A DNA stretch of 64,000 bases. It comes from Faecalibacterium prausnitzii (GTDB taxonomy: Bacteria; Bacillota; Clostridia; Oscillospirales; Ruminococcaceae). Location of the stretch: assembly GCF_003287405.1 (NCBI RefSeq), contig NZ_PRLD01000002.1, positions 62,001 through 126,000 on the forward strand. Reading direction: 5' to 3'. The position numbers were made by a program, and so were the translations under genes. Positions 1-53,202 of this stretch are shown here, one piece after another. The notes below the pieces were generated by a model. The model ran no database searches. It had not been told where the DNA came from and saw nothing but the letters and a program-made list of their open reading frames with translations. Positions within the stretch are counted from its first letter, which is position 1, and every line of letters begins with the position of its first letter.

Positions 1-393
1 AGCAACGGCATCAAGATGGTGGCTGTGCTGTCCGGCTCCATCATTCTGGCACAGTCCTTCGTGCCCGGTGCTGCCGCCGTTCTGCGCCAGCTGACCAAGC
101 TGAACTCTGTGTGTATGCCCATGCGCTACCTGTGGGTGTTTGCCGCCTACATTGCCCTGCGCAATGCCTACGATACCATCCCCGCCGAGTACCGCTTTGT
201 CAAAAATCAGGCCGTGGCCAAGTTCTTCGGCGGCTGGTGCTTTGCCGTTACCGCCGTGTGCTGCGTGCTGGGTATGTATGATAAGGACCCCTTCACCTTT
301 GCACTGAACGTCATCACCCCCGTGGTACTGACTGTGCTGGGATTCATTCTGCCCGCCCTTGCAAAGCGCGAACAGACCGCTGCCAAAAAGTAA
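1..393 (+). CDS. APC-family amino acid permease, C-terminal part
   Basis: The frame is open from base 1, so the gene starts before the window; 130 residues are visible. They form about three hydrophobic segments separated by short basic loops and end in a charged tail (AKREQTAAKK), as in the C-terminus of APC-superfamily amino acid permeases and antiporters. The family imports or exchanges amino acids across the cytoplasmic membrane; the substrate cannot be read from this fragment. An intrinsic terminator-like hairpin follows about 115 bases after the stop. Assignment to the superfamily is fairly safe, the subfamily is not. Confidence 0.65.
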   Translation, partial: SNGIKMVAVLSGSIILAQSFVPGAAAVLRQLTKLNSVCMPMRYLWVFAAYIALRNAYDTIPAEYRFVKNQAVAKFFGGWCFAVTAVCCVLGMYDKDPFTFALNVITPVVLTVLGFILPALAKREQTAAKK

Positions 394-409
394 CCTGAAT
401 ATGCTTATA

Positions 410-451
410 GCAATTCAACTTTTTAATGCAACGGCAACAGCGTTGAATTGC
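410..451. repeat. Inverted repeat after the permease
   Basis: GCAATTCAAC (410-419) is matched by GTTGAATTGC (442-451) with a 22-base loop. No T-run follows, so it is not a typical terminator. It may be an operator or an mRNA 3' stem; nothing in the sequence decides. Confidence 0.4.
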
Positions 452-504
452 ATATCGCAAATATGCTGTTTGAATGTTGCACTAATTTCTTGACTTGCGA
501 TAAA

Positions 505-535
505 AAGGGCCGGTCAGCACTGACCGGCTCTTTTC
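505..535 (+). terminator. Intrinsic terminator before the M18 aminopeptidase
   Basis: An 8-bp perfect stem (509-516 with 521-528, loop GCAC) is preceded by A-rich and followed by TCTTTT. It ends 27 bases before the aminopeptidase start, so it either terminates the permease transcript or acts as an attenuator for the next gene. Confidence 0.7.
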
Positions 536-561
536 AGATACACCTTAGGAGGTTTATTTTT

Positions 562-1878
562 ATGATCGCATCCGAAGTCCGTGAAATGCTGTCCTTCATC
601 GACGGCAACCCCACCGCATACCACACCACCGCCGCTGTGCGGGATATCCTGCTGAAGGCAGGCTTTGCAGAGCTGCTGGAAAGCCGCAAGTGGGCGCTGG
701 AACCCGGCAAGGACTACTTTGTCTGCCGCAACGGTTCCAGCATCATCGCCTTCCGCATGGGCGACCAGCTGGAGAATTACAGCTTCAACGTTGCCGCCGC
801 CCATACGGATTCTCCCTGCTTCCGCATCAAGGAGAACGCCGAGATCCACATGGGGCAGAACTACACCAAGCTGAACACCGAGGGCTACGGCGGCATGATC
901 TGCGCCACATGGATGGATCGTCCGCTGTCTGTGGCGGGCCGTGTGCTGGTGCAGGAGAACGGCGCTATCGTATCCCGTCTGGTGGCACTGGACCGCGACC
1001 TGCTGATGATCCCCAGCGTTGCCATCCACATGAACCGCGAGGTCAACGATAAGGCTTCCTTCAACAAGCAGGTGGATATGCTGCCCGTGCTGGGCGGTGC
1101 CTGCGAGGAGGGCGCGCTGAAAAAGCTGATCGCAGAGGAGCTGCAGGTGTCTGAGGAGCAGATCCTTGGCAGCGATCTGTTCCTCTATGTGCGGGAAAAA
1201 GCCACCGTCTGGGGCTGCAACGAGGAGTTCATCTCCTGCGGCCGTCTGGACGATCAGCAGTGCGTTTACGGCATCCTGAAAGGTCTGCTGACTGCCAAGA
1301 ACGCCCGCTCCATCGGTGTGGCAGCCTTCTTTGATAACGAGGAGGTCGGCTCCGGCACCAAGCAGGGCGCAGCCTCCACCTTCCTGTACGATGTGCTGCA
1401 CCGCATTGCCCAGAGCCTTGGCGGCAGCGACGAGGACTTCCACCGCGCGGTGGCTTCCAGCTTTATGGTCAGCGCCGACAACGCCCACGCCGTGCACCCC
1501 AACCACCCGGAGCACACCGATGTGAACAACTGCACCTACATGAACAAGGGTGTGGTCATCAAGACCCACGCCGGTCAGAAGTACACCAGCGACGGCATGA
1601 GCGTTGCAGCCGCCCGGGAGCTGGCTGCCCGCGCCGGTGTGCCGCTGCAATACTTTGCAAACCGTTCCGATAAGGTAGGCGGCAGCACGCTGGGCAATCT
1701 GGCGATGGCACAGGTGTCCATGAATTGTGTGGACATCGGCCTGCCCCAGCTGGCCATGCACTCCTGCTACGAGACCGCCGGTGCAGAGGATACCCTCTCG
1801 CTCATCAAGCTGATGCAGGAGCTGTACAGCAGCCACTTTGAAGAGACTGCTTTCGGCACGCTTTCTATCAGCAAGTAA
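562..1878 (+). CDS. M18 family aminopeptidase
   Basis: A 438-residue cytosolic dinuclear-zinc aminopeptidase that removes N-terminal (often acidic) residues from peptides. Recognisable M18 motifs are HTDSP near residue 80, the NEEVGS block with catalytic and metal-binding acidic residues near 257, HPNHPEH near 311 and the C-terminal metal His in QLAMHS near 398. Length matches the family (about 430-460). The frame is open further upstream to 448, but the ATG at 562 has a good AGGAGG site 12 bases ahead and the terminator hairpin lies inside the longer version, so 562 is preferred. It ends in front of a bidirectional terminator shared with the convergent decarboxylase genes. Confidence 0.93.
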   Translation: MIASEVREMLSFIDGNPTAYHTTAAVRDILLKAGFAELLESRKWALEPGKDYFVCRNGSSIIAFRMGDQLENYSFNVAAAHTDSPCFRIKENAEIHMGQNYTKLNTEGYGGMICATWMDRPLSVAGRVLVQENGAIVSRLVALDRDLLMIPSVAIHMNREVNDKASFNKQVDMLPVLGGACEEGALKKLIAEELQVSEEQILGSDLFLYVREKATVWGCNEEFISCGRLDDQQCVYGILKGLLTAKNARSIGVAAFFDNEEVGSGTKQGAASTFLYDVLHRIAQSLGGSDEDFHRAVASSFMVSADNAHAVHPNHPEHTDVNNCTYMNKGVVIKTHAGQKYTSDGMSVAAARELAARAGVPLQYFANRSDKVGGSTLGNLAMAQVSMNCVDIGLPQLAMHSCYETAGAEDTLSLIKLMQELYSSHFEETAFGTLSISK

Positions 1879-1886
1879 ATTGATAT

Positions 1887-1925
1887 AAAAAGGACTGCCG
1901 TGCGCTGCACGGCAGTCCTTTTTGC
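1887..1925. terminator. Bidirectional intrinsic terminator
   Basis: A perfect 14-bp stem (1890-1903 with 1907-1920) has A-rich sequence on the left and T5 on the right. It lies between the stops of the convergent M18 aminopeptidase and the small decarboxylase-associated gene and can serve both. Confidence 0.9.
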
Positions 1926-1937
1926 ATTTATGACTCT

Positions 1938-2066
1938 TTATTTGCGGCGGGTGAGACAGTTCAGCGCCATCACGACCAGCACAAGAAAACCGATGACCAG
2001 CAGGATACCGGTCATGCCGATGAGCATCATGGGCAGGGTGGTCATCCAGGAAGAAAGATGAAGCAT
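1938..2066 (-). CDS. OadG-like small membrane protein (42 aa)
   Basis: A 42-residue ORF with a clear GGAGGTG site 6 bases before its ATG and only 13 bases after the stop of the beta-subunit gene. It has one hydrophobic span (about residues 12-34) and a basic tail NCLTRRK. Size, position and topology resemble the small gamma or delta subunits of sodium-pumping decarboxylases, which anchor or stabilise the beta subunit; this is by context, since such subunits are poorly conserved. It shares the riboswitch-controlled transcript of the upstream beta subunit. Confidence 0.7.
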   Translation of the reverse strand: MLHLSSWMTTLPMMLIGMTGILLVIGFLVLVVMALNCLTRRK

Positions 2067-2079
2067 AAAGGCACCTCCG

Positions 2080-3210
2080 TTAAGCCATCAGGGAAAGGAT
2101 CAGTCCGCCGGCAAGGACGGATGCGATCTGTCCGGAAACGTTGACGCTGATGGAGTACATCAGCAGGAAATTCTGGCTGTCCTCGGCCAGACCCATCTTG
2201 TTGACCACGCGTCCGCTCATGGGGAAGGCCGAAATGCCTGCCGCGCCGATCATGGGGTTCAGCTTTTTGCCCTCGGGCAGGAACAGGTTCAGCAGCTTGG
2301 CGAACAGCACGCCGCCAGCGGTATCAAAGATAAAGGCTACAAGACCCAGCGCCATGATGAGCAAAGTGTCCGGCCGGACGAACTTGTCGGCGGTCATCTG
2401 CCCGGCAACGGTCAGACCCAGCAGCAGGGTGATGAGGTTTGCCAGTACGTTCTGGGCGGTCTCGCTCAGGGAGTTCAGCACGCCGCATTCCCGCAGCAGG
2501 TTGCCGAACATCAAAAAGCCTACCAGCGCCACGCTGGCCGGGGCTACCAGACCGGCGACCACCGTGACCACAACAGGGAACAGGATCTTGGTCAGCTGGG
2601 TGACATTGCCTTTTTCGTAGGGCATACGGATGCGGCGCTCCTTCTGGGTGGTCAGCAGACGGATGACCGGCGGCTGCACGATGGGCACCAGCGCCATGTA
2701 GCTGTAAGCTGCCACCATAATAGCGCCCAGATACTGGGATTTCAGGGTGTTTGCCACAAAAATGGCGGTGGGGCCATCCGCTGCGCCGATGACCGCAATG
2801 GATGCGGCATCCTTCATATCAAAGAAGAACCCGGCCAGAAACAGGGTGAAAAAGATGCCGAACTGTGCCGCTGCGCCAAACAGCATGAGCCACGGCTTTT
2901 CCAGCAGCGGGCCAAAATCGATCATGGCACCGATGCCGATGAACAGCAGCAGCGGGAACAGCTCGTTGGACATCCCTGCTTCAAACAGGGCAGAGATAGG
3001 GCCGACGGTGTCCCCCTGCGTGATGGCACCGGATGCGGGAAGATTGACCAGAATGGCACCGAACCCCATGGGCAGCAGCAGACTGGGCTCCATCTTTTTG
3101 ACGATGGCAAGGTAGATGAGCAGGGCACCGATGCCCCACATGACCACCATCTGCCATGTCAGCGCCCCGAAGTTTGAAAAGAGCGCGGCGAATGTGTTCC
3201 AGAAATTCAT
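2080..3210 (-). CDS. Sodium-translocating decarboxylase, beta subunit (OadB/GcdB/MmdB family)
   Basis: A 376-residue polytopic membrane protein with about ten hydrophobic spans. The family signature GAADGPTAIFVANT (residues 142-155), with the ion-path Asp145, and the C-terminal PMSGRVVNKMG block are both present. In known complexes this subunit couples decarboxylation of a biotinyl-carboxyl group to Na+ export. Here no alpha (carboxyltransferase) or biotin-carrier gene is nearby; only a 42-aa gamma-like gene follows. The frame stays open upstream, but the ATG at 3210 has an AAGGAGG site and the leader upstream is a riboswitch with terminator, so that start is chosen. Control by a Mn2+-type riboswitch suggests a role in cation homeostasis rather than in oxaloacetate breakdown; that is inference. 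Confidence 0.88.
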   Translation of the reverse strand: MNFWNTFAALFSNFGALTWQMVVMWGIGALLIYLAIVKKMEPSLLLPMGFGAILVNLPASGAITQGDTVGPISALFEAGMSNELFPLLLFIGIGAMIDFGPLLEKPWLMLFGAAAQFGIFFTLFLAGFFFDMKDAASIAVIGAADGPTAIFVANTLKSQYLGAIMVAAYSYMALVPIVQPPVIRLLTTQKERRIRMPYEKGNVTQLTKILFPVVVTVVAGLVAPASVALVGFLMFGNLLRECGVLNSLSETAQNVLANLITLLLGLTVAGQMTADKFVRPDTLLIMALGLVAFIFDTAGGVLFAKLLNLFLPEGKKLNPMIGAAGISAFPMSGRVVNKMGLAEDSQNFLLMYSISVNVSGQIASVLAGGLILSLMA

Positions 3211-3249
3211 ATTGTTTTTCTGCCTCCTTTTGTTCTGATGCTGCGGCAA

Positions 3250-3294
3250 GAAAAAAAGACCCTTGCCACAGCGTAAGATCTGTGACAAAAGTCT
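3250..3294 (-). terminator. Riboswitch expression platform of the decarboxylase leader
   Basis: On the minus strand a 15-bp stem (3294-3280 with 3271-3257, several G-U pairs) is followed by a run of T. Its 5' strand includes the 3' strand of riboswitch helix P1, so aptamer folding and termination are mutually exclusive: ligand should switch the gene on. Confidence 0.8.
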
Positions 3295-3400
3295 CAAGCG
3301 AACACATGACATCGGGCATTGCTGCCGTGATGACGCTGCCATGCAGCGGCCTGCCGGAAAAAAGCCTTGACCGGCAGGCTGCCCTTTACTCCCCTTTATC
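3284..3400 (-). promoter_or_regulatory. yybP-ykoY-type (Mn2+) riboswitch aptamer
   Basis: Helix P1 is formed by GATAAAGG (3400-3393) and CTTTTGTC (3291-3284). It is followed by the loop GGGGAGTAA and, on the 3' side, by GGCAGCAATGCCCGATG and CTTGAGAC. The same conserved blocks in the same order occur in the leader at 53098-53202. This pattern fits the yybP-ykoY class, which established work shows to sense Mn2+ and which usually controls cation exporters. The terminator that follows overlaps P1. Covariance-model scoring was not possible here. Confidence 0.78.
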
Positions 3401-3407
3401 ATTTTTA

Positions 3408-3436
3408 TTGATACCAGAAACTGCCGCTTCTGTCAA
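3408..3436 (-). promoter_or_regulatory. Sigma-A promoter of the riboswitch-oadB transcript
   Basis: On the minus strand TTGACA (3436-3431) and TATCAA (3413-3408) are separated by exactly 17 bases. The predicted start lies a few bases before the riboswitch P1 helix. Confidence 0.75.
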
Positions 3437-3478
3437 GAGGGGAATGCGGTTTTGCGCAAAAATTCAACCGTGAAAAGG

Positions 3479-3512
3479 CCAACCGGGAAAATCCGCAGAT
3501 TTTCCCGGTTGG
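3479..3512. repeat. Family A palindrome, single arm (terminator-like)
   Basis: A 15-bp perfect stem around the core ATCCGCAGAT. On the minus strand the loop is C(TGCG)G, a UNCG-type tetraloop, and the stem is followed by CCTTTTCAC. It lies downstream of the minus-strand PfkB kinase gene and probably ends its transcript. The flanks match the arms of the elements at 4733-5042 and 24171-24419. Confidence 0.7.
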
Positions 3513-3688
3513 CAAAATATAAATAATTTTTCCGCTGAAAATGGCCAAAGTGCAACGACGACGACCGCCGCCAGTGGCGGAAACAGGGAGGAGTTGTTGG
3601 GGCAGCGGCCAGCAAGACGCAAGCGCCGCCCAAGGCACGATGCGGATGCTGGGTGCCGCAACCCGATAGCGGAGACCATTCCAAACCG

Positions 3689-4621
3689 TTAATCCACCAC
3701 CGGTACATCCAGCCCGAACTCCTGCGGGCGGAAGCGGGGACAGACGTTCTCGGTGATGCAGATGACCGAGGCGGCCAGACGGCTGCCGATCTCGCAGGAC
3801 TCTGCCAGCGTTTTGCCGTAGGTCAGGCCGATGACCGTGCCTGCAAAGAAGGCGTCCCCTGCGCCGGTGGTGTCCATGACATCCACCTTTTTGGCGGGCA
3901 CGATGCCGCAGTTGCCGTCTGCACAGGCGTATACCGCGCCCTGTCCGCCCATGGTCACCACCATGCTGGGAATGTTGGCGCTGCGCACGTTGCCCGTGAG
4001 CACCCGGCACATCTCGTCCGGGGAGAGGTGGTCGTAGTCGTCCGAGAACAGCAGCCCGGCCTCCTGCTGGTTGCAGACGAAACAATCGATCTGCTGCAAA
4101 AAATCCCGCCGCTCCATGGCGATGCTCATGTTGGAGACCACGGCAAACACCTTTTTGCCGTACTTTTTGGCGTAGCGCAGGGTCTGCTTCACCGTTTCTT
4201 TTTCGAGGTCCAGCTCCAGTGCAATGGAATCGCAGTCTGCAAAAATGGCATCGCCCTGCTCCTGCAGCAGACCGGTCAGCGGGGTGGTGTCCGGCCGCTT
4301 GGAGATGGCGGCGTGCACATCGCCATCGTTGTCAAAAATGGCCAGCCATGTGCCCATGCCGTCCGGCACTTTCTGGATAAAGAGGGTGTTGACCTTGTGC
4401 CTTGCCAGCTTGTCGATGACGTCCTGTCCCATGCCGGTGTCGTCCACCAGACCCACAAAGGTGGGGCGCAGCTCCACGTTGGCAATATCCTCCACCACGT
4501 TGCGGCTCACGCCGCCGTGTACCTGCTCGATGCGTCCGGCGTTGCGCCCGCCCGGGATATAGGTGGAAAGGGGATAGCCCTTGATATCCACAAAAACAGC
4601 TCCGATGACTACGATACCCAT
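3689..4621 (-). CDS. PfkB-family carbohydrate kinase
   Basis: A 310-residue cytosolic sugar or nucleoside kinase of the ribokinase/PfkB superfamily, transferring phosphate from ATP to a sugar hydroxyl. The C-terminal signature DTTGAGDAFFAGT (catalytic Asp255 in GAGD) is intact and an N-terminal GG block (PGGRNAGR) replaces the usual di-glycine hinge. Length is typical. The substrate cannot be assigned. The gene is alone on its transcript, with a palindrome over its promoter -10 region and a terminator hairpin downstream, pointing to single-gene control. Confidence 0.88.
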   Translation of the reverse strand: MGIVVIGAVFVDIKGYPLSTYIPGGRNAGRIEQVHGGVSRNVVEDIANVELRPTFVGLVDDTGMGQDVIDKLARHKVNTLFIQKVPDGMGTWLAIFDNDGDVHAAISKRPDTTPLTGLLQEQGDAIFADCDSIALELDLEKETVKQTLRYAKKYGKKVFAVVSNMSIAMERRDFLQQIDCFVCNQQEAGLLFSDDYDHLSPDEMCRVLTGNVRSANIPSMVVTMGGQGAVYACADGNCGIVPAKKVDVMDTTGAGDAFFAGTVIGLTYGKTLAESCEIGSRLAASVICITENVCPRFRPQEFGLDVPVVD

Positions 4622-4655
4622 AAACGATAAACCTTTCTGACTTCAGTTGATTTTA

Positions 4656-4670
4656 CCTGTATTATACAGG
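4656..4670 (-). promoter_or_regulatory. Palindromic operator over the pfkB -10 box
   Basis: CCTGTATTATACAGG is a 15-base palindrome. On the minus strand it contains TATAAT (4666-4661), about 40 bases before the kinase start; no good -35 is visible. A repressor bound here would block the promoter. Confidence 0.5.
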
Positions 4671-4732
4671 AAGCAGAAAAAAGATGCTATCCCTTTGCCG
4701 TTTTTTGCGGAAAAATATCTTCCGGGTGGGAC

Positions 4733-5042
4733 GATTGGGAATGCCCGCCGCTTGCGCTTTGGGCATCGTCAGAGGAAAAATTATTTTTATTTTGGATTCC
4801 GAAAAGTCTGCGGACTTTTCGGAATCCCTTTTTCACGGAAAGGGGTCGTGACCGGAAGTGGCAGCTTCAAGATTTATTTTTGCATTTTGGAAAGTCTATA
4901 ATGATTGTTATAGATGCTTTTTCCCGCTACGACCCTCCCGTGAAAAGGCCAATCGGGAAAATCCGCAGATTTTCCCGATTGGCAAATATAAATAGTCTTT
5001 CCGCTAAAAATGCCCAGAGCGCAGCGGAGGGCATTCTGAATC
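4733..5042. mobile_element. MITE-like family A element, two-armed, no coding capacity
   Basis: Imperfect terminal inverted repeats of about 34 bases (4733-4766 and 5010-5042; inner part reads AATGCCC..CGC..GGGCAT) enclose two long palindromes, 4794-4827 and 4949-4982. Both have a TCTGCGGA core giving C(UGCG)G loops when read inward, each followed by a T-rich stretch. The element therefore looks like two intrinsic terminators facing inward. It fills the gap between the pyruvate kinase stop and the pfkB promoter. A closely related element is at 24171-24419. Confidence 0.7.
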
Positions 5043-5050
5043 AGCCCCTG

Positions 5051-6004
5051 TCACATCGCCGTGCGGGCGGTGCGCACCAGATACTCCATAGCCTGTACCG
5101 GGTACTGCCCGGCGGCGGTCTCGCCGGTGAGCATCAGGCTGGATGCGCCGTCCAGTACGGCGTTGTAGATGTCGTTCACCTCGGCGCGGGTGGGCACCGC
5201 CCGGGTGTGCATACTGTCCAGCATCTGGGTTACCACCATAAAGGGTACTCCGGCTGCCCGGCAGGCGGCAGAAAGCTGCTTCTGGCAGCGGGGCAGCTCC
5301 CACAGGGGCATCGCGTTGCCAAGGTCGCCCCGGGCAATGACTACCTCGTCCACCAGCGGCAAAAACTCCGGCAGCGCCTGCACGCCCGCAAGGCTTTCAA
5401 TTTTGGCAAGGATCTTCAGCTGCGGCGCACCGGCCTCTGCCAGCGCCTGCCGCAGGCTGCGGATATCTTCAGCGCCGCGCACAAAGGGCAGCATGACCCC
5501 GGTAACGCCGCAACCGGCGGCGATGGCAAGGTTCTCCTTGTCCTCGGTGGTCAGGGTGGGCATCTGGATGTCTGCCCCCGGTGCTGCCAGACTTTTGCGG
5601 CTTTGCAGCACGCCGCCCCGCACTACGGTGCACACGAGCGCTTCCGGCTCCACGGCGTCCACCCGCGCCAGCAGCTTGCCGTCATCCAGCAGCAGCTCCT
5701 GCCCGGGCTGCACGCTGTGCACCAGCGCGGCAGGGCAGGGGATGCCCTGCGCGCCCAAACGCACGGTCTGCCCGGCGGTCAGGGACAGCGGCTGCGGCAG
5801 ACGTCCAATGCGCAGTTCCGGCCCCTGCAGGTCGATGAGCAGCTTTTTGACCCCGGCCTTGCGCAGCAGCGCCAGCCAGTCCGCGTGCGCTGCCAGCGGC
5901 CCGTGAGAAAGATTCATGCGGATGCCGGTCATGCCGGCTTCCACCATCTGCTGCAAAAGCTTTACATCGGCACAGGCAGGGCCGATGGTTCCGTAAAAAT
6001 CCAT
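5051..6004 (-). CDS. Short pyruvate kinase-like protein (catalytic domain only)
   Basis: A 317-residue protein matching the TIM-barrel of pyruvate kinase (phosphoenolpyruvate + ADP to pyruvate + ATP). It has YGTIGPAC at the N-terminus, NLSHG, LQGPELRIG, KIESLAG with the catalytic Lys, ARGDLG, TQMLDSM and PTRAEVND..TGETAAGQYP. Usual enzymes are about 470-590 residues and carry a C-terminal regulatory domain; here the protein ends shortly after the barrel. ATG at 6004 has AGGAGG in front. It may be an active unregulated enzyme or a paralogue with another role. It stands alone, between a MITE-like element and a shared terminator. Confidence 0.85.
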   Translation of the reverse strand: MDFYGTIGPACADVKLLQQMVEAGMTGIRMNLSHGPLAAHADWLALLRKAGVKKLLIDLQGPELRIGRLPQPLSLTAGQTVRLGAQGIPCPAALVHSVQPGQELLLDDGKLLARVDAVEPEALVCTVVRGGVLQSRKSLAAPGADIQMPTLTTEDKENLAIAAGCGVTGVMLPFVRGAEDIRSLRQALAEAGAPQLKILAKIESLAGVQALPEFLPLVDEVVIARGDLGNAMPLWELPRCQKQLSAACRAAGVPFMVVTQMLDSMHTRAVPTRAEVNDIYNAVLDGASSLMLTGETAAGQYPVQAMEYLVRTARTAM

Positions 6005-6077
6005 AATTCCTCCTGCAATTCGCGTTTTCTTTCTATTGTAGCATGACCGCGCGGCAAAAGATAGCCCGGCGGCGCAT

Positions 6078-6120
6078 AAAAAAACACCGGAAGCCGATGC
6101 AAAGCCTCCGGTGTCTTTTT
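6078..6120. terminator. Hairpin with A/T tracts, bidirectional terminator
   Basis: An 8-bp stem (6084-6091 with 6107-6114) has A6 on the left and T5 on the right. On the minus strand it can terminate transcripts arriving from the phosphoesterase gene. Confidence 0.65.
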
Positions 6121-6287
6121 ATGATGCCTTATGGGGTTTACTGCGATACTTTGCACCGCCTGCGTTCAGTACAAAGCTTACAGCTCCCTCTATTTTTAAA
6201 GGTTGTACTTAGTTTACAGCATTTCGGGCAGTTCGTCAAGGGCTTTTTCCAGCTTTTGCCGGGAAAAACTGGAATATCACAACATTA

Positions 6288-6833
6288 TCACAACTGCAGC
6301 TGGTGGTAGCACGCGCCCTCCATGGTCTTCCAACAGGCGGTGCTTCCCTCCAAGGTCATGTAGCTGTGGGCGGTGTTTTCCTTGGGAATGCTCACGGAGC
6401 CGGGGTTTAAGTAAAGGTTCCCCTGCCCGAAGTTTGTCCATGCGGGCACATGGGTGTGACCGTGGAGCAAAATATCCCCCGGGGCAAGGGGCGGCAGATG
6501 GTTCAGGTTGAACACATGGCCGTGGGTGACGTAGACCAGCCGCTGCCCCACCGGCAGCACGGCGTAATCCGCCAGCACCGGGAAATTGAGCACCATCTGG
6601 TCTACATCGGCGTCGCAGTTGCCCCGCACGCACAGCAGCTTGGGCGCAAGGCTGTTCAGCAGCGGAATCACCTTTTTGGGGGCGTAATCCCGGGGCAGGT
6701 CGTTGCGGGGGCCGTGGTAGAGCAGGTCTCCCAAGAACAGCAGGCGGTCGGCCTGCTCCCGTTCAAAGGCCTGCTGCAGCTGCTGCGCATAATAATAGGA
6801 GCCGTGCAGGTCTGATGCGATCATCCATTTCAT
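6288..6833 (-). CDS. YfcE-like metallophosphoesterase
   Basis: A 181-residue phosphodiesterase of the calcineurin-like superfamily. All metal-binding blocks are present: ASDLHG (D8, H10), LFLGD, VRGNCD, VTHGH and LHGHTH. Related proteins (YfcE, MJ0936) hydrolyse phosphodiester model substrates with Mn2+; the natural substrate is unknown. The frame extends to a TTG at 6839, but the ATG at 6833 lies at the better distance from GAGGGAGGG and starts directly with MKWMIASDLHG. Single-gene transcript. Confidence 0.88.
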   Translation of the reverse strand: MKWMIASDLHGSYYYAQQLQQAFEREQADRLLFLGDLLYHGPRNDLPRDYAPKKVIPLLNSLAPKLLCVRGNCDADVDQMVLNFPVLADYAVLPVGQRLVYVTHGHVFNLNHLPPLAPGDILLHGHTHVPAWTNFGQGNLYLNPGSVSIPKENTAHSYMTLEGSTACWKTMEGACYHQLQL

Positions 6834-6931
6834 ATACAATGCCCTCCCTCAGAGCCGGTTTGCCTTATTGTAGCGCCTGCTGTAAAAATGGTCAAGTAAT
6901 TACAAAAGTCATACTTTTGCACCAAAACCCC

Positions 6932-6960
6932 TTGACACGCCGCTGAGGATGTGGTATTCT
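6932..6960 (+). promoter_or_regulatory. Sigma-A promoter of the MATE leader
   Basis: TTGACA (6932-6937), a 17-base spacer and TATTCT (6955-6960). Transcription would begin near 6967, giving a leader of about 210 bases before the MATE gene. Confidence 0.75.
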
Positions 6961-6965
6961 GCTAG

Positions 6966-7120
6966 GGTTGCAACCCGCAAATGCGCAGGCTGCATATCGC
7001 GGACAGCTGCCGCGATCATAAAAACCGTGTGGATTTTTACAGCAACATTGCTACTTTTCGCCACACAATGACCTTTAAAGGGTCATTGTGTGGCTTTTTT
7101 TGCGCCGGAAACCGGCTGCA
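6966..7120 (+). promoter_or_regulatory. Structured 5' leader with terminator in front of the MATE gene (riboswitch-like)
   Basis: The leader folds into several stems: ATCGCGG/CCGCGAT near 6996-7016, AAAAACC-GTGT-GGATTTTT near 7020-7037, and a possible closing helix GTTGC (about 6967) with GCAAC (about 7042). It ends in a perfect hairpin CCACACAATGACC / GGTCATTGTGTGG followed by T7. An upstream GTGTGG can pair with the CCACAC of the terminator, giving an antiterminator. This is the layout of a riboswitch or attenuator, but I do not recognise the aptamer class. Confidence 0.6.
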
Positions 7121-7177
7121 AGCCGATGCTGTGCCCGCCACATTTTTGCTTTTTACGGATAGCAGGTGAAATTTTTT

Positions 7178-8512
7178 ATGAACGAAACTTTTATGAAGGA
7201 GAAGCCGGTGCTGCCGCTGCTGCTCTCGATGGCGCTGCCCAACGTGCTCTCCATGCTGGTAAACAGCCTGTACAACATTGTGGACAGCCTGTTTGTGGCG
7301 CGCATCAGCGAGGACGCCATGACCGCGTTAAGTCTGGTGTTCCCCATCCAGAACTTTTCCAACGCCATTGCCATCGGCTTTGGCATCGGCATCAACGCCA
7401 TGATCGCGCTGTATCTGGGCGCGGGCGACCGCGAAAAGGCCGAGACGGCCGCCACCCACGGCTTTGTGCTCAGCCTTGTGCACGGCGTGGTGATGATGGT
7501 GGTCAGCATCGCCATCATGCCCGGCTTTCTGCGCCGCTTTACGCAGGACGAGGCGCTGATCGCCGCCGGCATCACCTACTCCACCATCGTGTTCCTGTTT
7601 TTGGTCGTGAACATGGTCTCGCTGGCCTTTGAAAAGATCTTTCAGGCAGTGGGCCGCATGAAGGTGTCCATGGTCGCCTTGATCACCGGCTGCGTGTGCA
7701 ATATTTTACTGGACCCTGTGCTCATTTTCGGCCTTGGGCCGGTGCCTGCCATGGGCATTGCGGGCGCGGCACTGGCCACCGGCATCGGTCAGGCGCTCAG
7801 CGTGGTAGTTTACCTTGTGGTCTATCTGCGCACCGAGCTGCCGGTGCGGCTGCGCCGCCGCTGCCTGCGCCCGGACGCAGCGCTGGACGGCAGACTGTAC
7901 GCCATCGGCATTCCGGCCATCCTCAATCTGGCGCTGCCCTCGCTGCTGGTCACCTTCCTCAACGGGCTGCTGGCAGCTTTCTCCCAGAGCTATGTGGTGG
8001 TGCTGGGCATCTACTATAAATTGCAGACCTTTTTGTACCTGCCCGCCAACGGCTTCGTGCAGGGAATGCGCCCCCTCATCGGCTACAATTACGGCGCGCG
8101 GGAGCACGCTCGGGTGAAAAAGCTGTTCCAGCTGACCCTGCTCATGAGCGCAGCCATCATGGCGGCGGGCACGGTGATCTGTCAGTTTGCCTCCGGGCAG
8201 CTGATGGGGCTGTTCACCCAGAACCCCGAAACCATCGCCGCCGGGCAGACTGCCTTGCGCATCATCAGCATCGGCTTTGTCATCTCGGCAGTCTCCACCA
8301 CCGCTTCCGGTGCACTGGAGGGACTGGGCAAGGGCGCAGAATCGCTGGTCATCGCGCTGTGCCGGTATGTTGTTTTCATCATGCCGCTGGCTGCACTGCT
8401 GTGTAACTGGCTGGGCGCAGACGGCGTATGGCACGCCTTCTGGCTTACCGAGGTGCTGGCAGCGGCGGTCTCCGGCATCGTCTACCGCCGGGCGGTCACA
8501 CATAAAAAATAA
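7178..8512 (+). CDS. MATE-family multidrug/cation antiporter
   Basis: A 444-residue membrane protein with about twelve hydrophobic segments in two similar halves, typical of the MATE family (Na+- or H+-driven export of organic cations, drugs or metabolites). The N-terminal half carries the usual NVLSMLVNSLYNIVDSLFV segment and the C-terminal half NGFVQGMRPLIGYNYGA. GTG at 7166 is in frame, but AGGTGA overlaps it and serves the ATG at 7178. The gene is expressed through an attenuator leader, so it probably responds to a small molecule that the pump removes. Confidence 0.93.
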   Translation: MNETFMKEKPVLPLLLSMALPNVLSMLVNSLYNIVDSLFVARISEDAMTALSLVFPIQNFSNAIAIGFGIGINAMIALYLGAGDREKAETAATHGFVLSLVHGVVMMVVSIAIMPGFLRRFTQDEALIAAGITYSTIVFLFLVVNMVSLAFEKIFQAVGRMKVSMVALITGCVCNILLDPVLIFGLGPVPAMGIAGAALATGIGQALSVVVYLVVYLRTELPVRLRRRCLRPDAALDGRLYAIGIPAILNLALPSLLVTFLNGLLAAFSQSYVVVLGIYYKLQTFLYLPANGFVQGMRPLIGYNYGAREHARVKKLFQLTLLMSAAIMAAGTVICQFASGQLMGLFTQNPETIAAGQTALRIISIGFVISAVSTTASGALEGLGKGAESLVIALCRYVVFIMPLAALLCNWLGADGVWHAFWLTEVLAAAVSGIVYRRAVTHKK

Positions 8513-8520
8513 GAATTTTT

Positions 8521-8552
8521 GATAGGGGCGTTTCATAACGTCCCTATTTTTC
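8521..8552 (+). terminator. Intrinsic terminator after the MATE gene
   Basis: Stem 8522-8531 with 8538-8547 (one G-U pair, loop TTCATA) followed by T5. Confidence 0.8.
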
Positions 8553-8553
8553 A

Positions 8554-8582
8554 TTGACACTACGGTAAAAGTACGGTAAAAT
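8554..8582 (+). promoter_or_regulatory. Sigma-A promoter of the alanine symporter gene
   Basis: TTGACA (8554-8559), 17 bases, TAAAAT (8577-8582). It starts just after the preceding terminator. The spacer and box contain the direct repeat TACGGTAAAA. Confidence 0.8.
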
Positions 8583-8643
8583 ATTCTTCGTGTTTTGACA
8601 AAAACTGTCAGTGCGCAAGATATTACAGAGGATGTGGAAGTAT

Positions 8644-10035
8644 ATGATCGAGACCATTGCCGCCGTCAATCAGGCGGTGAACAGCTTTATCTGGGGCATC
8701 CCCGCCATGGTGTGCATCATTGGCGTGGGGCTGCTGCTCAGTGTCCGCACGGGCTTTTTGCAGATCCGCAAATTCCCCTACGCCATCCGCACCACCGTGG
8801 GACGGATGTTCCGCAAGCGGGATGCTTCGGACGGTGCCATGACCCCTTTTCAGGCGGTGTGCACCGCGCTGGCGGGCACGGTGGGCACCGGCAACATTGC
8901 CGGTGTGGCGGGCGCTATCGCCATCGGCGGCCCGGGTGCCGTGTTCTGGATGTGGTGCTCTGCGCTGCTGGGGATGTGCACCAAGTTTGCCGAGGTGACG
9001 CTGGCTGTGCATTTCCGGGAGCGCAGCGATACCGGCGAGTGGGTGGGCGGCCCGATGTACTATATTAAAAACGGCCTTGGCCGCCGCTGGCAGTTTCTGG
9101 CCGTGCTGTACGCACTGTTCGGTGTGCTGACCGTGTTCGGCACCGGCAACGCAACGCAGGTGAACACCATCGTAGCGGCGGTGGATACCGCTCTGCTGGA
9201 ATACGGGCTGGTGGGCGGCAGCTTTCTGCCCACCCTCAACCTCATCGTGGGTATTCTTGTGGCGGTGCTGGTGGCGCTGGTGCTGCTGGGCGGCATCAAG
9301 CGTATTGGCAGCGTAAGCGAGAAGCTGGTGCCCTTTATGGCACTGTTCTACATTGTGCTGTCGGTGGGCGTGGTGGTGCTCAACTTTTCCCGTCTGCCCT
9401 ATGTGCTGGAATCCATCGTGGCGGGCGCGTTCAACCCCGCTGCCTTTACCGGCGGCACTATTGGCAGCCTGTTCGTCAGTATGCAAAAGGGCGTTTCCCG
9501 CGGCATCTTTTCCAACGAGGCCGGTCTTGGCACCGGCTCCATCGCCCATGCCTGCGCCGACACCAAAAAGCCGGTCAAGCAGGGTATGTTCGGCATTTTT
9601 GAGGTGTTTGCCGATACCATCGTCATCTGCACCCTGACCGCGCTGGTCATCCTGTGCAGCGGCACCTCGGTCAGCTACGGCGCAGCGGCCGGTGCAGAGC
9701 TGACCATCTCCGGCTTTACCACCACCTACGGCGGCTGGGCGTCTATCTTTACCGCTGTGGCGCTGTGCTGCTTTGCCTTTTCCACCATCATCGGCTGGGG
9801 TCTGTACGGCTCCCGTTTTCTGGTGTTCCTGTGCAAGAGCAACAAGGTGGCGCGCCCCTTCTTTGTGGTGTATGCTCTGGTAGCCATTCTGGGCGCTACC
9901 ATGGACCTTGGTCTGCTGTGGAGCATCGCCGACACCTTCAACGGCCTGATGAGCATCCCGAACCTCATTGCATTGCTGCTGCTTTCCGGCACGGTGGTAC
10001 AGATGACCCGCGCCTTTTTTGAATCGGAAGGGTGA
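8644..10035 (+). CDS. Sodium:alanine (AGCS family) symporter
   Basis: A 463-residue polytopic membrane protein of the alanine or glycine:cation symporter family, importing alanine or glycine with Na+. Family blocks are visible: TPFQAVCTALAGTVGTGNIAGVAGA near the N-terminus, GGPGAVFWMWCSALLGMCTKF, and SRGIFSNEAGLGTGSIAHA in the middle. Length is usual. In-frame starts also exist at 8611 (GTG) and 8632 (ATG); 8644 (MIETIAAVN) matches the usual N-terminus and is preferred, although its ribosome site is weak. Confidence 0.92.
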   Translation: MIETIAAVNQAVNSFIWGIPAMVCIIGVGLLLSVRTGFLQIRKFPYAIRTTVGRMFRKRDASDGAMTPFQAVCTALAGTVGTGNIAGVAGAIAIGGPGAVFWMWCSALLGMCTKFAEVTLAVHFRERSDTGEWVGGPMYYIKNGLGRRWQFLAVLYALFGVLTVFGTGNATQVNTIVAAVDTALLEYGLVGGSFLPTLNLIVGILVAVLVALVLLGGIKRIGSVSEKLVPFMALFYIVLSVGVVVLNFSRLPYVLESIVAGAFNPAAFTGGTIGSLFVSMQKGVSRGIFSNEAGLGTGSIAHACADTKKPVKQGMFGIFEVFADTIVICTLTALVILCSGTSVSYGAAAGAELTISGFTTTYGGWASIFTAVALCCFAFSTIIGWGLYGSRFLVFLCKSNKVARPFFVVYALVAILGATMDLGLLWSIADTFNGLMSIPNLIALLLLSGTVVQMTRAFFESEG

Positions 10036-10054
10036 GCGGTATTCCCGTCCATAG

Positions 10055-10083
10055 TGGACAGAAACGCCGGAACGTGGTATACT
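10055..10083 (+). promoter_or_regulatory. Sigma-A promoter of the M29 aminopeptidase
   Basis: TGGACA (10055-10060), 17-base spacer, TATACT (10078-10083); 43 bases before the GTG start. Confidence 0.7.
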
Positions 10084-10126
10084 GAGAGAAAAACAACGGT
10101 GGCTATACACCACAGGAGGTTCTGAC

Positions 10127-11368
10127 GTGGAAAACTTTAACGAATTGCTGCAAAAGTATGCAGATTTTATCGTCCGGGTGGGTGTGAACCCGCAGCCGGG
10201 ACAGACCCTTATCATCAACTGCCCGCTGGAGGGTGCCCCGCTGGCACGGCTGTGCGTGCGCAGCGCCTACGAAGCCGGTGCGCGGGACGTGCAGGTGAAC
10301 TGGCAGGATGACGCCGTTACCCGCATCCGCATGGAGCTGGGCAGCGAGGACGCACTGACCGACCACAAGGGCTGGCAGCTGCGCCGCTATCTGGACTACG
10401 CCGAGAGCGAGGGCGGCGTGTGCGTGCTGCATCTTATTGCGGACGACCCGGAACTGTTTGCCGGGCTGGACGGCGCTAAGATCAGCCGTGTGAACAGCGC
10501 GAACCGCAGCTTTATGCAGCCGTGGCGGGAGTACACCATGAACGACCGGGTGCAGTGGTCCATCGCTGCTCTGCCCGCAGAGCCGTGGGCAAAGAAGATG
10601 TTCCCGGAGCTGGACACTGCCGCCGCCATTGAAGCACAGTGGAAGCTCATTTTTGACACCTGCCGTGTGACCGGCGGCGACCCGGTAGGGGAGTGGCAGA
10701 AGCATCTGGACCGCCTGAACGAGCTGGGCGCAAAGATGAACGCCCTTGATCTGGAAAGCGTGCATTTTGAAAGCGCCAACGGCACCGACCTGACTGTGGG
10801 TCTGGCGGAACAGGCTGTGTGGGAGAGCGCCGGCAGCAAAAACGAGAAGGGCGTGCCCTTTCTGCCCAACATCCCCACCGAGGAGGTGTTCACCGCACCC
10901 CATAAGGATAAGGTGGACGGCATCGTTTACGGCACAAAGCCCTACGTCTTTAACGGACAGCTGATCAAAAACTTCCATGTCACCTTCAAGGACGGCAAGG
11001 TAGTGGAGCACGGCGCGGACGAGGGCGCAGATCTGCTGGGTCAGCTGCTGGACACCGACGAGGGCGCACGCCACATCGGCGAGGTGGCACTGGTGCCTGC
11101 CTCCAGCCCCATCAACCGCAGCGGCAAGCTGTTCTACAACACCCTGTTTGACGAGAACGCCGCCTGCCACATCGCCTTTGGCGACAGCTACCCCGGCACC
11201 ACCGTGGGCGGCACCGGCCTTTCCAAGGAAGAGCTGGCAGCCCGCGGCATGAACCACTCCTCCCTGCACGAGGATGTGATGGTGGGTGCAGAGGACAGCC
11301 GCATCACCGGCAAATGCCGCGATGGCCGCACTGTACAGCTGTTCGAGAACGGTGTCTGGGTGCTGTAA
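10127..11368 (+). CDS. M29 family aminopeptidase
   Basis: A 413-residue cytosolic metallo-aminopeptidase of family M29 (AmpS/PepS type), releasing N-terminal residues from peptides. C-terminal metal-binding blocks are clear: GEVALVPASSPI with a Glu ligand, AACHIAFGDSYP with a His, and LHEDVMVGAEDSRITG with His and Asp. The start is GTG at 10127, fixed by AGGAGGT eight bases upstream. Length matches the family (about 410). Single-gene transcript ahead of the rimP operon promoter. Confidence 0.93.
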   Translation: MENFNELLQKYADFIVRVGVNPQPGQTLIINCPLEGAPLARLCVRSAYEAGARDVQVNWQDDAVTRIRMELGSEDALTDHKGWQLRRYLDYAESEGGVCVLHLIADDPELFAGLDGAKISRVNSANRSFMQPWREYTMNDRVQWSIAALPAEPWAKKMFPELDTAAAIEAQWKLIFDTCRVTGGDPVGEWQKHLDRLNELGAKMNALDLESVHFESANGTDLTVGLAEQAVWESAGSKNEKGVPFLPNIPTEEVFTAPHKDKVDGIVYGTKPYVFNGQLIKNFHVTFKDGKVVEHGADEGADLLGQLLDTDEGARHIGEVALVPASSPINRSGKLFYNTLFDENAACHIAFGDSYPGTTVGGTGLSKEELAARGMNHSSLHEDVMVGAEDSRITGKCRDGRTVQLFENGVWVL

Positions 11369-11412
11369 AAAGCCCCAAAGGGCGCGCAACTGCAAAAAAA
11401 TTGCGAAAATGC

Positions 11413-11441
11413 TTGCATAAATCGCAAGAGTATGCTATATT
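11413..11441 (+). promoter_or_regulatory. Sigma-A promoter of the rimP-nusA-infB operon
   Basis: TTGCAT (11413-11418), 17-base spacer, TATATT (11436-11441), about 75 bases before rimP. Confidence 0.75.
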
Positions 11442-11467
11442 CTAGTAGTACGATATAGTTTAACCTG

Positions 11468-11500
11468 AAACGTGGGCCGCAAGGTCCGCGTTTCTTGTTT
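11468..11500 (+). terminator. Leader hairpin in front of rimP (possible attenuator)
   Basis: An 11-bp stem (11468-11478 with 11483-11493, two G-U pairs) capped by a GCAA tetraloop and followed by CTTGTTTGTTT. It lies in the untranslated leader, just before the rimP ribosome site. The position in front of rimP-nusA suggests autogenous control of the operon by NusA-dependent termination; that is inference. Confidence 0.55.
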
Positions 11501-11515
11501 GTTTGGAGGTTTTTT

Positions 11516-12001
11516 ATGGCGAAGCAGTCTGGCGGCAACACCGCGCAGAGAGTGGAAGCGCTTGTCCGTCCCACGGTGGAAGGCATGGGTCTGCGCCTGT
11601 GGGATGTGGTTTTTGAGAAGGAAGGGCCGGACTGGTATCTTCGCATCCTCATCGACCGGGACGGCACCATGGATACCGACACCTGTGCTGAGGTGTCCCA
11701 CGCACTGGACCCCATTCTGGACGAAGCGGACCCCATCGACCAGAGCTATTATCTGGAAGTGGGCAGCCCCGGCCTTGGCCGCAAGCTGACCCGCCCGGAG
11801 CACTACGAGGTGCTGAAGGGCCAGAAGGTGCGGGCAAAGCTCATCCGCCCCAACGCCGACGGCGTGCGGGAACTGTCCGGCATCCTGACCGGCCGCGAGG
11901 GCAGCACCGTGACGCTGGAGACCGAAAACGGCCCTGTGACCTTTGAGGTGAATGCAGTCTCCGGCGTGCAGCTGTGCGACGACGAGGATCTGTTCAACTG
12001 A
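11516..12001 (+). CDS. rimP: Ribosome maturation factor RimP
   Basis: A 161-residue cytosolic protein needed for maturation of the 30S subunit. It has the two-part RimP fold: an N-terminal domain (VRPTVEGMGLRLWDVVFEKEG, then LRILIDRDGTMDTDTC with SHALDPILDE) and a C-terminal SH3-like domain from about residue 88. The PGLGRKL junction is conserved. ATG at 11516 follows GGAGG; an earlier in-frame ATG at 11495 overlaps the leader hairpin region and is rejected. First gene of the transcription-translation operon. Confidence 0.95.
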   Translation: MAKQSGGNTAQRVEALVRPTVEGMGLRLWDVVFEKEGPDWYLRILIDRDGTMDTDTCAEVSHALDPILDEADPIDQSYYLEVGSPGLGRKLTRPEHYEVLKGQKVRAKLIRPNADGVRELSGILTGREGSTVTLETENGPVTFEVNAVSGVQLCDDEDLFN

Positions 12002-12057
12002 AAATAACCGTCTCTGAGAGAGAAAAGAGAACAAAATATATAGGAGGAACCCGAAAA

Positions 12058-13164
12058 ATGACAGCAGAGAATAAGGACTTTTTTGAAGCGCTCTCCATGC
12101 TGGAGCATGAGCGCGGCATCACCGCAGAGTACCTGATCGAAAAGATCAAGGCGGCTATCATCATTGCCGTCAAGAAGAACTATGAGGTCGAGGAGGATCA
12201 CATCCGGGTGGACATCGACCCCGACACCGGCCGCTTTGACGTGGCACTGATTCAGGACATCGTGGCAGACGAGGACTGGTACGACGAGCACGCCGAGATC
12301 GGTGTGACCGAAGCACGCAAGATCCGCAGCAGCTATGAGGTCGGCGACCGCATCATCACCCCGCTCAAGACCCGCGATTTTGGCCGCATTGCCGCCCAGA
12401 CCGCAAAGCACGTCATCCGTCAGGGCATCCGCGAAGCCGAGCGCAACCAGCAGCTCAGCGAGATCCAGTCCCGCGCACATGATATCGTGCAGGCTACCGT
12501 TACCCGCGTGGATACCGAGAAGGGCATCGTTGCGCTGGATCTGGGCAAGGGCGGCGAGGCTGTTCTGCCCCGCAACGAGCAGGTGCCCGGCGAGGTGTAC
12601 ACCGAGGGCGAGACCCTGCAGGTCTACATCGTGGATGTGGTCAGCACCGAGCGCGGCCCCCGCGTGATGATCAGCCGCACCCATCCCGGCCTTGTCAAGC
12701 GCCTGTTTGAGCTGGAAGTGCCCGAGATCTTTGACGGCACTGTGGAGGTAAAGGCCATCAGCCGCGAAGCCGGTGCCCGCACCAAGATGGCTGTCTGGTC
12801 CAAGGACCCCAACGTCAACCCTGTTTCTGCCTGCATCGGCGAGCACGGTGCCCGTGTGGCTGCTGTTGTGGAAAAGCTGGGCGGTGAGAAGATCGATATC
12901 GTCAAGTGGAGCGAGGATATCTCTGAGTTCATCTCCGCAGCCCTGAGCCCCGCCAAGGTGGTCAAGGTGGAGCTGCTGCCCGGCGAGACCCGCTCCTGCC
13001 GTGTCACCGTGCCCGACCAGCAGCTGAGTCTGGCCATCGGCAACAAGGGTCAGAACGCCCGCCTGTGCGCCCGCCTGACCGGCTACAACATTGATATCCG
13101 TCCCGAGAGCGGCTACTACGGCGAGGACGAAGAGCCCAAGAAGGACGCAGCAGACGCTGAATAA
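12058..13164 (+). CDS. nusA: Transcription termination/antitermination factor NusA
   Basis: A 368-residue RNA polymerase-binding factor that promotes pausing and modulates termination. It shows the N-terminal polymerase-binding domain (to about residue 125), the S1 domain (VQATVTRVDTEKGIVALDLG onward), and two KH domains with GARTKMAVWS and the second-KH block SLAIGNKGQNARLCARLTG. It ends in an acidic tail without the C-terminal repeats of proteobacterial NusA, as in Firmicutes. ATG at 12058 has AGGAGG nine bases upstream. Confidence 0.96.
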   Translation: MTAENKDFFEALSMLEHERGITAEYLIEKIKAAIIIAVKKNYEVEEDHIRVDIDPDTGRFDVALIQDIVADEDWYDEHAEIGVTEARKIRSSYEVGDRIITPLKTRDFGRIAAQTAKHVIRQGIREAERNQQLSEIQSRAHDIVQATVTRVDTEKGIVALDLGKGGEAVLPRNEQVPGEVYTEGETLQVYIVDVVSTERGPRVMISRTHPGLVKRLFELEVPEIFDGTVEVKAISREAGARTKMAVWSKDPNVNPVSACIGEHGARVAAVVEKLGGEKIDIVKWSEDISEFISAALSPAKVVKVELLPGETRSCRVTVPDQQLSLAIGNKGQNARLCARLTGYNIDIRPESGYYGEDEEPKKDAADAE

Positions 13165-13197
13165 GCCCGGCACCATCTGCCGAAGGAGGGAAACCGG

Positions 13198-13497
13198 ATG
13201 GCACAAAAAAAGATCCCTGCCCGCCAGTGCATCGGCTGCATGACCAGCCGCCCCAAAAAGGAGCTGGTGCGCGTGGTGCGCGCACCCAGCGGGGAGATCA
13301 GCATTGATCTGGTAGGCAAAAAGCCGGGGCGCGGCGCATATCTCTGCCCGGACCCGGACTGCCTGACCAAGGCAAAGAAGAAAAAGGCGCTGGAGCGCTG
13401 CTTTGAGCAGCCGGTCCCCGCCGAGGTATACGACGCGCTGGCTGTACAGCTGGCCGCAGCCGCAAAGGAGGCAGCAGCCGATGGCAAAAAAGAATAA
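13198..13497 (+). CDS. ylxR: YlxR (DUF448) RNA-binding protein
   Basis: A 99-residue basic protein of the YlxR/DUF448 family found between nusA and infB in Firmicutes. It has the RQCIGCMTSRPKKELVRVVR start and the GRGAYLC signature; a CxxC-type pair is seen at CIGC. It is thought to be a nucleoid- or RNA-associated regulator; the function is not settled. It overlaps the next gene by 17 bases. Confidence 0.92.
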   Translation: MAQKKIPARQCIGCMTSRPKKELVRVVRAPSGEISIDLVGKKPGRGAYLCPDPDCLTKAKKKKALERCFEQPVPAEVYDALAVQLAAAAKEAAADGKKE

Positions 13498-13858
13498 CGC
13501 TCCCGCAAAACCCAAGCTGCCCCCGGAGGAAGCACTGTATCAGGCCGTGAGCCTGTGCCGCAAGGCCGGTGCGCTGACCATGGGCTTTGACGCCGTGGAG
13601 GAGGCCTGCGTAAAAAGCAAGGCGTGGCTGGTGATGACCGCATCGGACATCAGCCCCAAGACCCTGCAGCGTTTGAACTACGCCGTGGGGGACTTAGTGG
13701 ACGTGTTCACCATGCCGCTGACGCAGGATAAGCTTGCCGATATCAGCCACAAGCCCGTGGCTGTTTACGCGGTGACCGACCGCAACCTCGCAAAGCTCTG
13801 CTTCGACCGCCTGTCGGACTGCGGAGCAATCAAAAATGAGGAGGATATGAGCGAATGA
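13481..13858 (+). CDS. ylxQ: L7Ae-family ribosomal-like protein YlxQ
   Basis: A 125-residue protein of the L7Ae/L30e/YlxQ family, binding kink-turn-like RNA. The core AVSLCRKAGALTMGFDAVEEA and AWLVMTASDISPKTLQRL match the fold. The ATG at 13481 is chosen because an AAAGGAGG site lies just ahead; the start is inside ylxR. It ends with an ATGA overlap on infB, indicating translational coupling. Confidence 0.88.
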   Translation: MAKKNNAPAKPKLPPEEALYQAVSLCRKAGALTMGFDAVEEACVKSKAWLVMTASDISPKTLQRLNYAVGDLVDVFTMPLTQDKLADISHKPVAVYAVTDRNLAKLCFDRLSDCGAIKNEEDMSE

Positions 13859-53089: not shown

Positions 53090-53097
53090 ACCCTCTG

Positions 53098-53202
53098 GAT
53101 AAAAGGGAGTAAGGGGCGTACCTTTGTAAAAAAGTGCGCTGTGCTGCAGCGACAGACCCGGCAGAGATGCCCGATGCAGTACCGATGCTTGAGACTTTTA
53201 TC
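53098..53202 (+). promoter_or_regulatory. yybP-ykoY-type (Mn2+) riboswitch aptamer, second copy
   Basis: GATAAAAG (53098-53105) pairs perfectly with CTTTTATC (53195-53202) as P1. It contains the conserved GGGAGTAA loop, CAGCGACAGACCCGGCAG, ATGCCCGATG and GCTTGAGAC, the same set as in the 3284-3400 leader. This class senses Mn2+ and normally controls Mn2+ or other cation exporters. Identification is by motif order and P1 complementarity. Confidence 0.82.

Follow-up and report, generated by a model that had tools for sequence, protein, structure and literature searches.

This study concerns a leader RNA and the two genes behind it on the reverse strand of a 64,000-nucleotide stretch of DNA from Faecalibacterium prausnitzii (NCBI RefSeq assembly GCF_003287405.1, contig NZ_PRLD01000002.1, positions 62,001 to 126,000 of the forward strand; phylum Bacillota, order Oscillospirales, family Ruminococcaceae). 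The whole stretch is called the window below. The first gene, oadB, encodes a homolog of the beta subunit of the oxaloacetate decarboxylase (OAD) Na+ pump, the second encodes a single-helix gamma-like protein (mini-gamma), and the leader has the architecture of the yybP-ykoY class of Mn2+ riboswitches. From sequence comparison, a probability of about 0.55 is given to the explanation that the oadB/mini-gamma pair is induced by Mn2+ and exports a cation, probably Mn2+, on its own; independence of the pair from the decarboxylase is considered most likely. If this is true, the pair would represent a new transporter family in the manganese homeostasis of abundant gut bacteria, and the persistence of orphan beta/gamma genes away from the decarboxylase would be explained. 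The pair also makes it possible to test directly whether a divalent ion can be transported by an OAD beta subunit in the absence of carboxybiotin.

A literature search, the scope of which did not take in the 2015 ligand-identification papers, found no paper linking this clade of OadB proteins to manganese, and the only co-mention was a Na+ riboswitch paper. The Na+-I riboswitch (DUF1646) is likewise a cation riboswitch ahead of an oxaloacetate decarboxylase gene; however, it belongs to another RNA class with another ligand and, in the part of the source available, it is described before a decarboxylase gene rather than an orphan beta/mini-gamma pair (PMC9337991).

The leader RNA and its class

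The leader comprises a promoter, an aptamer and an intrinsic terminator (Table 1), as the sequence-only reading had proposed. The promoter was seen by eye, and the position of its TTGACA element before the aptamer is conserved in loci L002-L009 (L, G and C numbers denote loci, genomes and contigs of our sets). It was not among the results of a consensus scan, the rule of which requires T as the last base of the -10 element. Transcription from this promoter would start near position 3401 and thus coincide with the beginning of the aptamer. The 5' arm of the terminator includes the 3' strand of the switch helix (3291-3284), which confirms the proposed overlap and makes the two folds mutually exclusive; the terminator folds at -22.5 kcal/mol (z -5.0), and none of 200 shuffled sequences folded equally well. 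The start of oadB is placed at 3210 and not at 3402, the start of the longer open reading frame, because a ribosome-binding site precedes 3210.

The window RNA shares with the L. lactis type of the yybP-ykoY Mn2+ riboswitch (Rfam RF00080) the class core, namely GGGGAGUA against GAGAC in L1 and a docking arm with the internal loop L3 and its invariant A, as well as competition between the switch helix and a terminator; it differs in being unreported by the Rfam model and in preceding a decarboxylase beta subunit. The invariant A of L3 contacts the metal, and the L3 of the L. lactis member has the form UCA(41)AU(43)UC (PMC6754395). The window form, UCAUCAC, is close to it, and the form ACAUACU occurs in other members. 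In the L. lactis riboswitch, Mn2+ stabilizes the switch helix, so that termination is prevented (PMC11087558); since the layout is the same, the window leader would also be an ON switch. On its architecture and homology the RNA is assigned to the yybP-ykoY class, and it is very probable that the switch exists and responds to Mn2+.

The sequence-only reading had looked to the RF00080 covariance score for a decision on the class, and on this point the result was unfavorable: RF00080 gave no match at E ≤ 10 in window positions 3150-3500, and the search of the window at the Rfam gathering thresholds returned one tRNA and nothing else. However, RF00080 was rejected as a judge here because the mntP leader of the same genome, which is its single sub-threshold match there, likewise falls below the cut-off (26.6 bits against 45), and because it found matches in only seven of the 147 genomes of the order, none above the cut-off, compared with 82 for the retrained model R2. 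Both searches of the order were run with stricter filters, and the R2 counts for the order are therefore lower bounds (at least one aptamer was missed). RF00080 thus reports few of the Mn2+-type aptamers of this order, and it appears to need members from it. Of its seven matches, one precedes an OadB gene (L036, genome G106, of another family), and the other six were assigned by eye to five MntP genes and one P-type ATPase gene; the match before OadB, although below the cut-off, is evidence independent of the retrained models.

The first of these models, R1, was derived from RF00080 matches in 299 genomes of the phylum, 55 of which had one; 30 loci were fetched (seven above the cut-off), and 28 were used, with L043 and L059 omitted as being close to L051 and L060. 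R1 matched the leader and a second site in the window (Table 1), and the next match scored 12.5 bits (E = 0.38). Among loci L002-L031, it matched all 17 oadB leaders that were positive by regular expression and none of the remaining 13. The second model, R2, was built on 51 sequences, the oadB leaders included. Over these 51 sequences, two-sided changes occur in 28 of 29 pairs, and the covariation score is 0.736 compared with 0.239 for shuffled and at most 0.164 for slid alignments, the alignment itself being fitted to the structure.

Genes behind the aptamer

In a survey of 41 genomes of the family, in which the longest downstream open reading frame was compared by BLAST with a small reference set, R2 found 48 sites in 27 genomes, three of them in the window genome. 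These sites precede genes for OadB (10), MntP (12), P-type ATPase (11), Na+/Ca2+ exchanger (7) and GDT1 (1), and seven are unassigned. The MntP, P-type ATPase, exchanger and GDT1-like genes behind aptamers resemble divalent-metal exporters. The link of the class to cation exporters, on which the sequence-only reading relied, recurs in this family and in the order: in the family, 30 of the 48 aptamers precede an MntP, P-type ATPase or exchanger gene. In two family loci (L098 and L113) the longest open reading frames after the aptamer are hydrophobic and transporter-like and match no reference exporter.

The sequence-only reading had also suggested scanning other genomes for the aptamer before OadB genes, and the scan of the order was positive. 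R2 found 114 sites in the genomes of the order, and the OadB proteins among the matches listed fell by identity into 62 members of one clade (58-100%) and 88 others (45-54%). An R2 site lies no more than 500 nucleotides upstream of 24 of the 62 clade genes, and a 25th (in G069) was seen on fetching its contig, compared with none of the 88 other OadB genes listed, which have no site within 3 kb (25/62 vs 0/88; Fisher p = 7.5e-12, with shared ancestry ignored). When 49 of the 62 clade loci were fetched again, the same 19 sites as before were recovered and no additional ones. In a separate set of 75 named loci, 67 belong to the clade (62-100% identity), and R2 matches 38 of these at E ≤ 1 (36 at E ≤ 0.001). 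Each of the 38 has a single match, which lies immediately before oadB, and the remainder of the 723 kb has none. The 28 aptamer-less clade loci that were inspected have a different upstream sequence. The aptamer before clade oadB is thus common and not universal.

A chance link or an annotation artefact would leave RF00080 without a match at E ≤ 10, as was observed; however, the R1 E-value of 7.1e-8, the placement of all 38 named-locus matches directly before oadB and the lack of any R2 site within 3 kb of the 88 other OadB genes listed make this explanation exceedingly improbable.

The OadB clade and its small partner

The window OadB shares 100% identity with the OadB of Faecalibacterium sp. 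I4-1-79 and 99% with the one from F. prausnitzii ATCC 27768. By eye, the clade is separate in a FastTree tree of 94 sequences and the Salmonella protein, where the row L191 is the second, canonical OadB of that locus and not its clade gene. In Salmonella OadB, D203, S382 and N412 bind Na+, while E40A causes severe and R304A moderate inhibition of decarboxylation (PMC7274780). The Na+-binding residues are all conserved in the window protein, as D145, S327 and N357, whereas R304 is replaced by S, P411 by V and V416 by Q361. Among 42 of 47 clade proteins (one copy of the window gene, two truncated proteins and two duplicates being left out), E40, D203, S382 and N412 are conserved in 42/42, R304 in three and P411 in none. 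All clade rows of the tree alignment that cover position 416 carry Q at this site. At positions 304, 411 and 416, the residues R, P and V are found in the Salmonella protein, in the second L191 gene and in the 14 other rows. As a clade marker, E134 was tried and rejected, being also present in the OadB proteins of L208, L209 and L211-L216.

The 42-residue gamma-like gene, a further proposal of the sequence-only reading, is supported by its position and its recurrence. A small one-helix open reading frame (38-86 residues) follows 54 of the 59 oadB genes read; the count started from 61 loci, two of which (L300 and L303) had no protein, and the remaining five are three loci lacking the frame and two that are truncated. 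NF040909, named by NCBI as an 'OadG-related small transporter subunit' of untested function, was the best NCBIfam match for nine of ten small proteins scanned, with two of the ten above the cut-off; the window protein scores 11.9 bits, below the cut-off of 25. To bind the alpha subunit, Salmonella OadG requires its residues 61-84 (PMC7274780). The window protein ends at residue 42 and therefore cannot contain this alpha-binding tail.

Compared with the Salmonella OAD Na+ pump beta-gamma complex (OadBG; 6iva/6iww), the window pair has a beta subunit by sequence (E = 5.5e-95), the same Na+-site residues and a one-helix partner encoded downstream, but R304, P411 and V416 are changed, the partner is tail-less and no alpha subunit or biotin carrier is encoded nearby. 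As a Na+-translocating decarboxylase complex, the locus would thus have the Na+-site residues and lack both a co-encoded alpha subunit with biotin carrier and the gamma tail.

Relation to the decarboxylase

Profiles for OadA and the biotin carrier gave no match in window positions 1-14000, in agreement with the absence of both noted in the sequence-only reading. Elsewhere in the window genome there is a single PYC_OADA and a single PF00364 match, both on contig C18, and a canonical OadB with OadG on contig C14. That reading had considered that an OadA gene elsewhere might be co-regulated with the pair; OadA is indeed present elsewhere in the genome, but R2 found no aptamer beside it or the canonical oadB in the regions of C14 and C18 fetched. 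In the five genomes examined at L127-L131, canonical OadB adjoins OadA and the biotin carrier. Around the aptamer-bearing oadB genes, a match to OadA or the biotin carrier was found at one of 25 loci of the order set (up to ~6 kb each side, with at least 3 kb on both sides at 17 of the 24 non-window loci) and at none of 38 loci of the named set. Furthermore, genome G076 (99% complete) has the aptamer and the clade OadB with no PYC_OADA match and no other OadB among the matches listed, and in G017 (89% complete), which also has both, no PYC_OADA, other OadB or biotin carrier was found.

Several observations weigh against a stand-alone exporter. In G069 (76% complete), the aptamer, the clade oadB, mini-gamma, OadA and the biotin carrier follow one another on one strand, and the terminator-like stem that separates mini-gamma from OadA is weak; in L191 the clade oadB lies within an OAD operon; in G063 a divergent OadA gene adjoins the clade gene, and in G136 OadA is ~4 kb away. 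Four genomes (G003, G007, G016 and G021; 83-99% complete) have OadA and a single OadB match, which is of the clade and is without the aptamer. The aptamer was not found at 37 of the 62 clade genes of the order or at 29 of the 67 named loci. None of the 30 RF00080 source loci of the phylum encodes OadB within ~1.5 kb on each side, so that the link has so far been seen mainly in this order. The Gln at position 416 of the clade proteins and the presence of MntP above its cut-off in all 32 genomes tested (weakly in G505) are to be counted on the same side. Because MntP is present in all of them, OadB adds to MntP, and its replacement of MntP where it carries the aptamer was rejected. The proposal of a stand-alone cation transporter, made in the sequence-only reading, stands as regards the missing OadA nearby and the recurring company of exporters, but OadA lies near the clade gene in four genomes, once behind an aptamer. 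The clade is not strictly separate from OadA, although most of its genes have no OadA neighbor; its aptamer-bearing members are nearly always separate.

The operon of L191 (2386-6065) contains OadB genes of both kinds, two biotin carriers, a full OadG and mini-gamma.

Proposed mechanism and alternative explanations

In the favored explanation, the leader would act as a yybP-ykoY-class riboswitch that turns transcription on, in which bound Mn2+ would dock L1 with L3 and stabilize the switch helix. The stabilized helix would sequester the strand that the terminator needs, so that RNA polymerase would continue into the two genes. Their products, OadB and the one-helix protein, may form a beta/mini-gamma complex, in which the Na+-site residues of the OAD pump are kept and the tail that recruits the alpha subunit is absent by sequence. 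This complex is envisaged as an elevator-type secondary transporter that would expel a cation at high Mn2+. Its cargo would most likely be Mn2+, exchanged for Na+ or H+; Mn2+ is preferred on account of the other genes that share this regulation, with Na+ as a less likely alternative. For the clade as a whole, it is suggested more tentatively, at slightly under even odds, that it left the decarboxylase and that, together with mini-gamma, it now exports Mn2+ on its own, with the CPA/AT (CitS/NhaA-like elevator) fold and under the control of a Mn2+ riboswitch. Both the cargo and the energy source would then be new for the OAD beta family.

Na+ itself (or Na+/H+) might instead be transported on induction by Mn2+, sustaining the Na+ gradient for Na+-coupled Mn2+/Ca2+ exporters while Mn2+ is not moved by the pair. 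The conservation in 42/42 clade proteins of the three Na+-binding residues of Salmonella OadB (PMC7274780) and the Na+/Ca2+ exchanger gene behind the sister aptamer in the same window are in keeping with such a role, which we regard as rather unlikely: the other assigned genes (31 of 48 family sites) resemble divalent-metal exporters, and control of the gene by a Na+ riboswitch was rejected, as none was found at the gathering score in 30 loci scanned, mostly OadB loci. A lower probability still is given to a role of this OadB as an alternative beta subunit. In that case, OadA and the biotin carrier would dock to it in trans, and the export of Na+ or even Mn2+ would be powered by the decarboxylation of oxaloacetate. 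Such a role would account for the arrangements in G069, L191, G063 and G136, for the four genomes with OadA in which no other OadB was matched and for the retention in 42/42 proteins of E40, which is critical for decarboxylation in Salmonella (PMC7274780). However, mini-gamma has no alpha-binding tail, R304 is absent from 39/42 and P411 from 42/42 proteins, G076 and G017 show no PYC_OADA match, and OadA and the canonical OadB of the window genome lie on other contigs, where R2 found no aptamer.

It is also conceivable, but improbable, that a different ion, such as Ca2+ or protons, is the ligand of the aptamer in this lineage or the cargo of the pair. At its ends, the window L3 has G and A in place of the U and G of the 28 R1 sequences; a Ca2+ response has been claimed for a Streptococcus member of the class (PMC9495176), and Na+/Ca2+ exchanger genes are among those regulated. 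Nevertheless, the leaders of L022 and L026, which also precede oadB, have the canonical letters at the ends of L3, the metal-contacting A is invariant in the alignments, and mntP belongs to the same regulated set.

Features of the window and minor observations

Table 1. Positions of the features discussed, counted from the first base of the window
Feature	Position	Strand	Details and basis
Promoter	3408..3436	-	-35 TTGACA 3436-3431, 17-nucleotide spacer, -10 TATCAA 3413-3408; read by eye
Mn2+ (yybP-ykoY) type aptamer	3284..3401	-	R1 covariance model, 37.4 bits, E 7.1e-8
Aptamer switch helix	3400-3393 pairs with 3291-3284	-	closing helix
Aptamer L1	3392-3387 with 3295-3292	-	GGAGUA with GAGA
Aptamer L3	3336-3327	-	GCGUCAUCAC; A at 3331 invariant in alignments
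Intrinsic terminator hairpin	3256..3295	-	16-pair stem, seven-U run 3257-3251
Ribosome-binding site	3221..3230	-	AAAGGAGGCA; read from sequence
oadB-type gene, 376 residues	2080..3210	-	PF03977 483.7 bits (cut-off 31.6), E 3.8e-145; TIGR01109; 6iva_A E 5.5e-95
Single-helix gamma-like protein, 42 residues	1938..2066	-	position and recurrence
Second aptamer, same kind	53097..53202	+	R1 32.2 bits, E 1.7e-6; before Na+/Ca2+ exchanger gene
Na+/Ca2+ exchanger family gene, 319 residues	53286..54245	+	PF01699 E 1.8e-61
PfkB kinase gene	upstream of oadB leader		neighbor
M18 peptidase gene		opposite to oadB	neighbor

By eye, a terminator-like stem also overlaps the end of the second aptamer. Aptamers in close pairs were observed twice in the wider search, namely in G496:C48 (12928-13026 and 13652-13754, 724 bases from start to start) and in G056:C21 (23193-23334 and 24269-24378, 1076 bases from start to start). 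Shortly after the clade oadB of L132, a fluoride riboswitch at the gathering score lies at 8069-8158 on the forward strand. An interspersed intergenic repeat occurs in the window at 3444-3557, 4753-4843 and 4914-5026, with an inverted core GCCAACCGGGAAAATCCGCAGATTTTCCCGGTTGGC; it consists of two direct copies that are 82% alike and an inverted relative.

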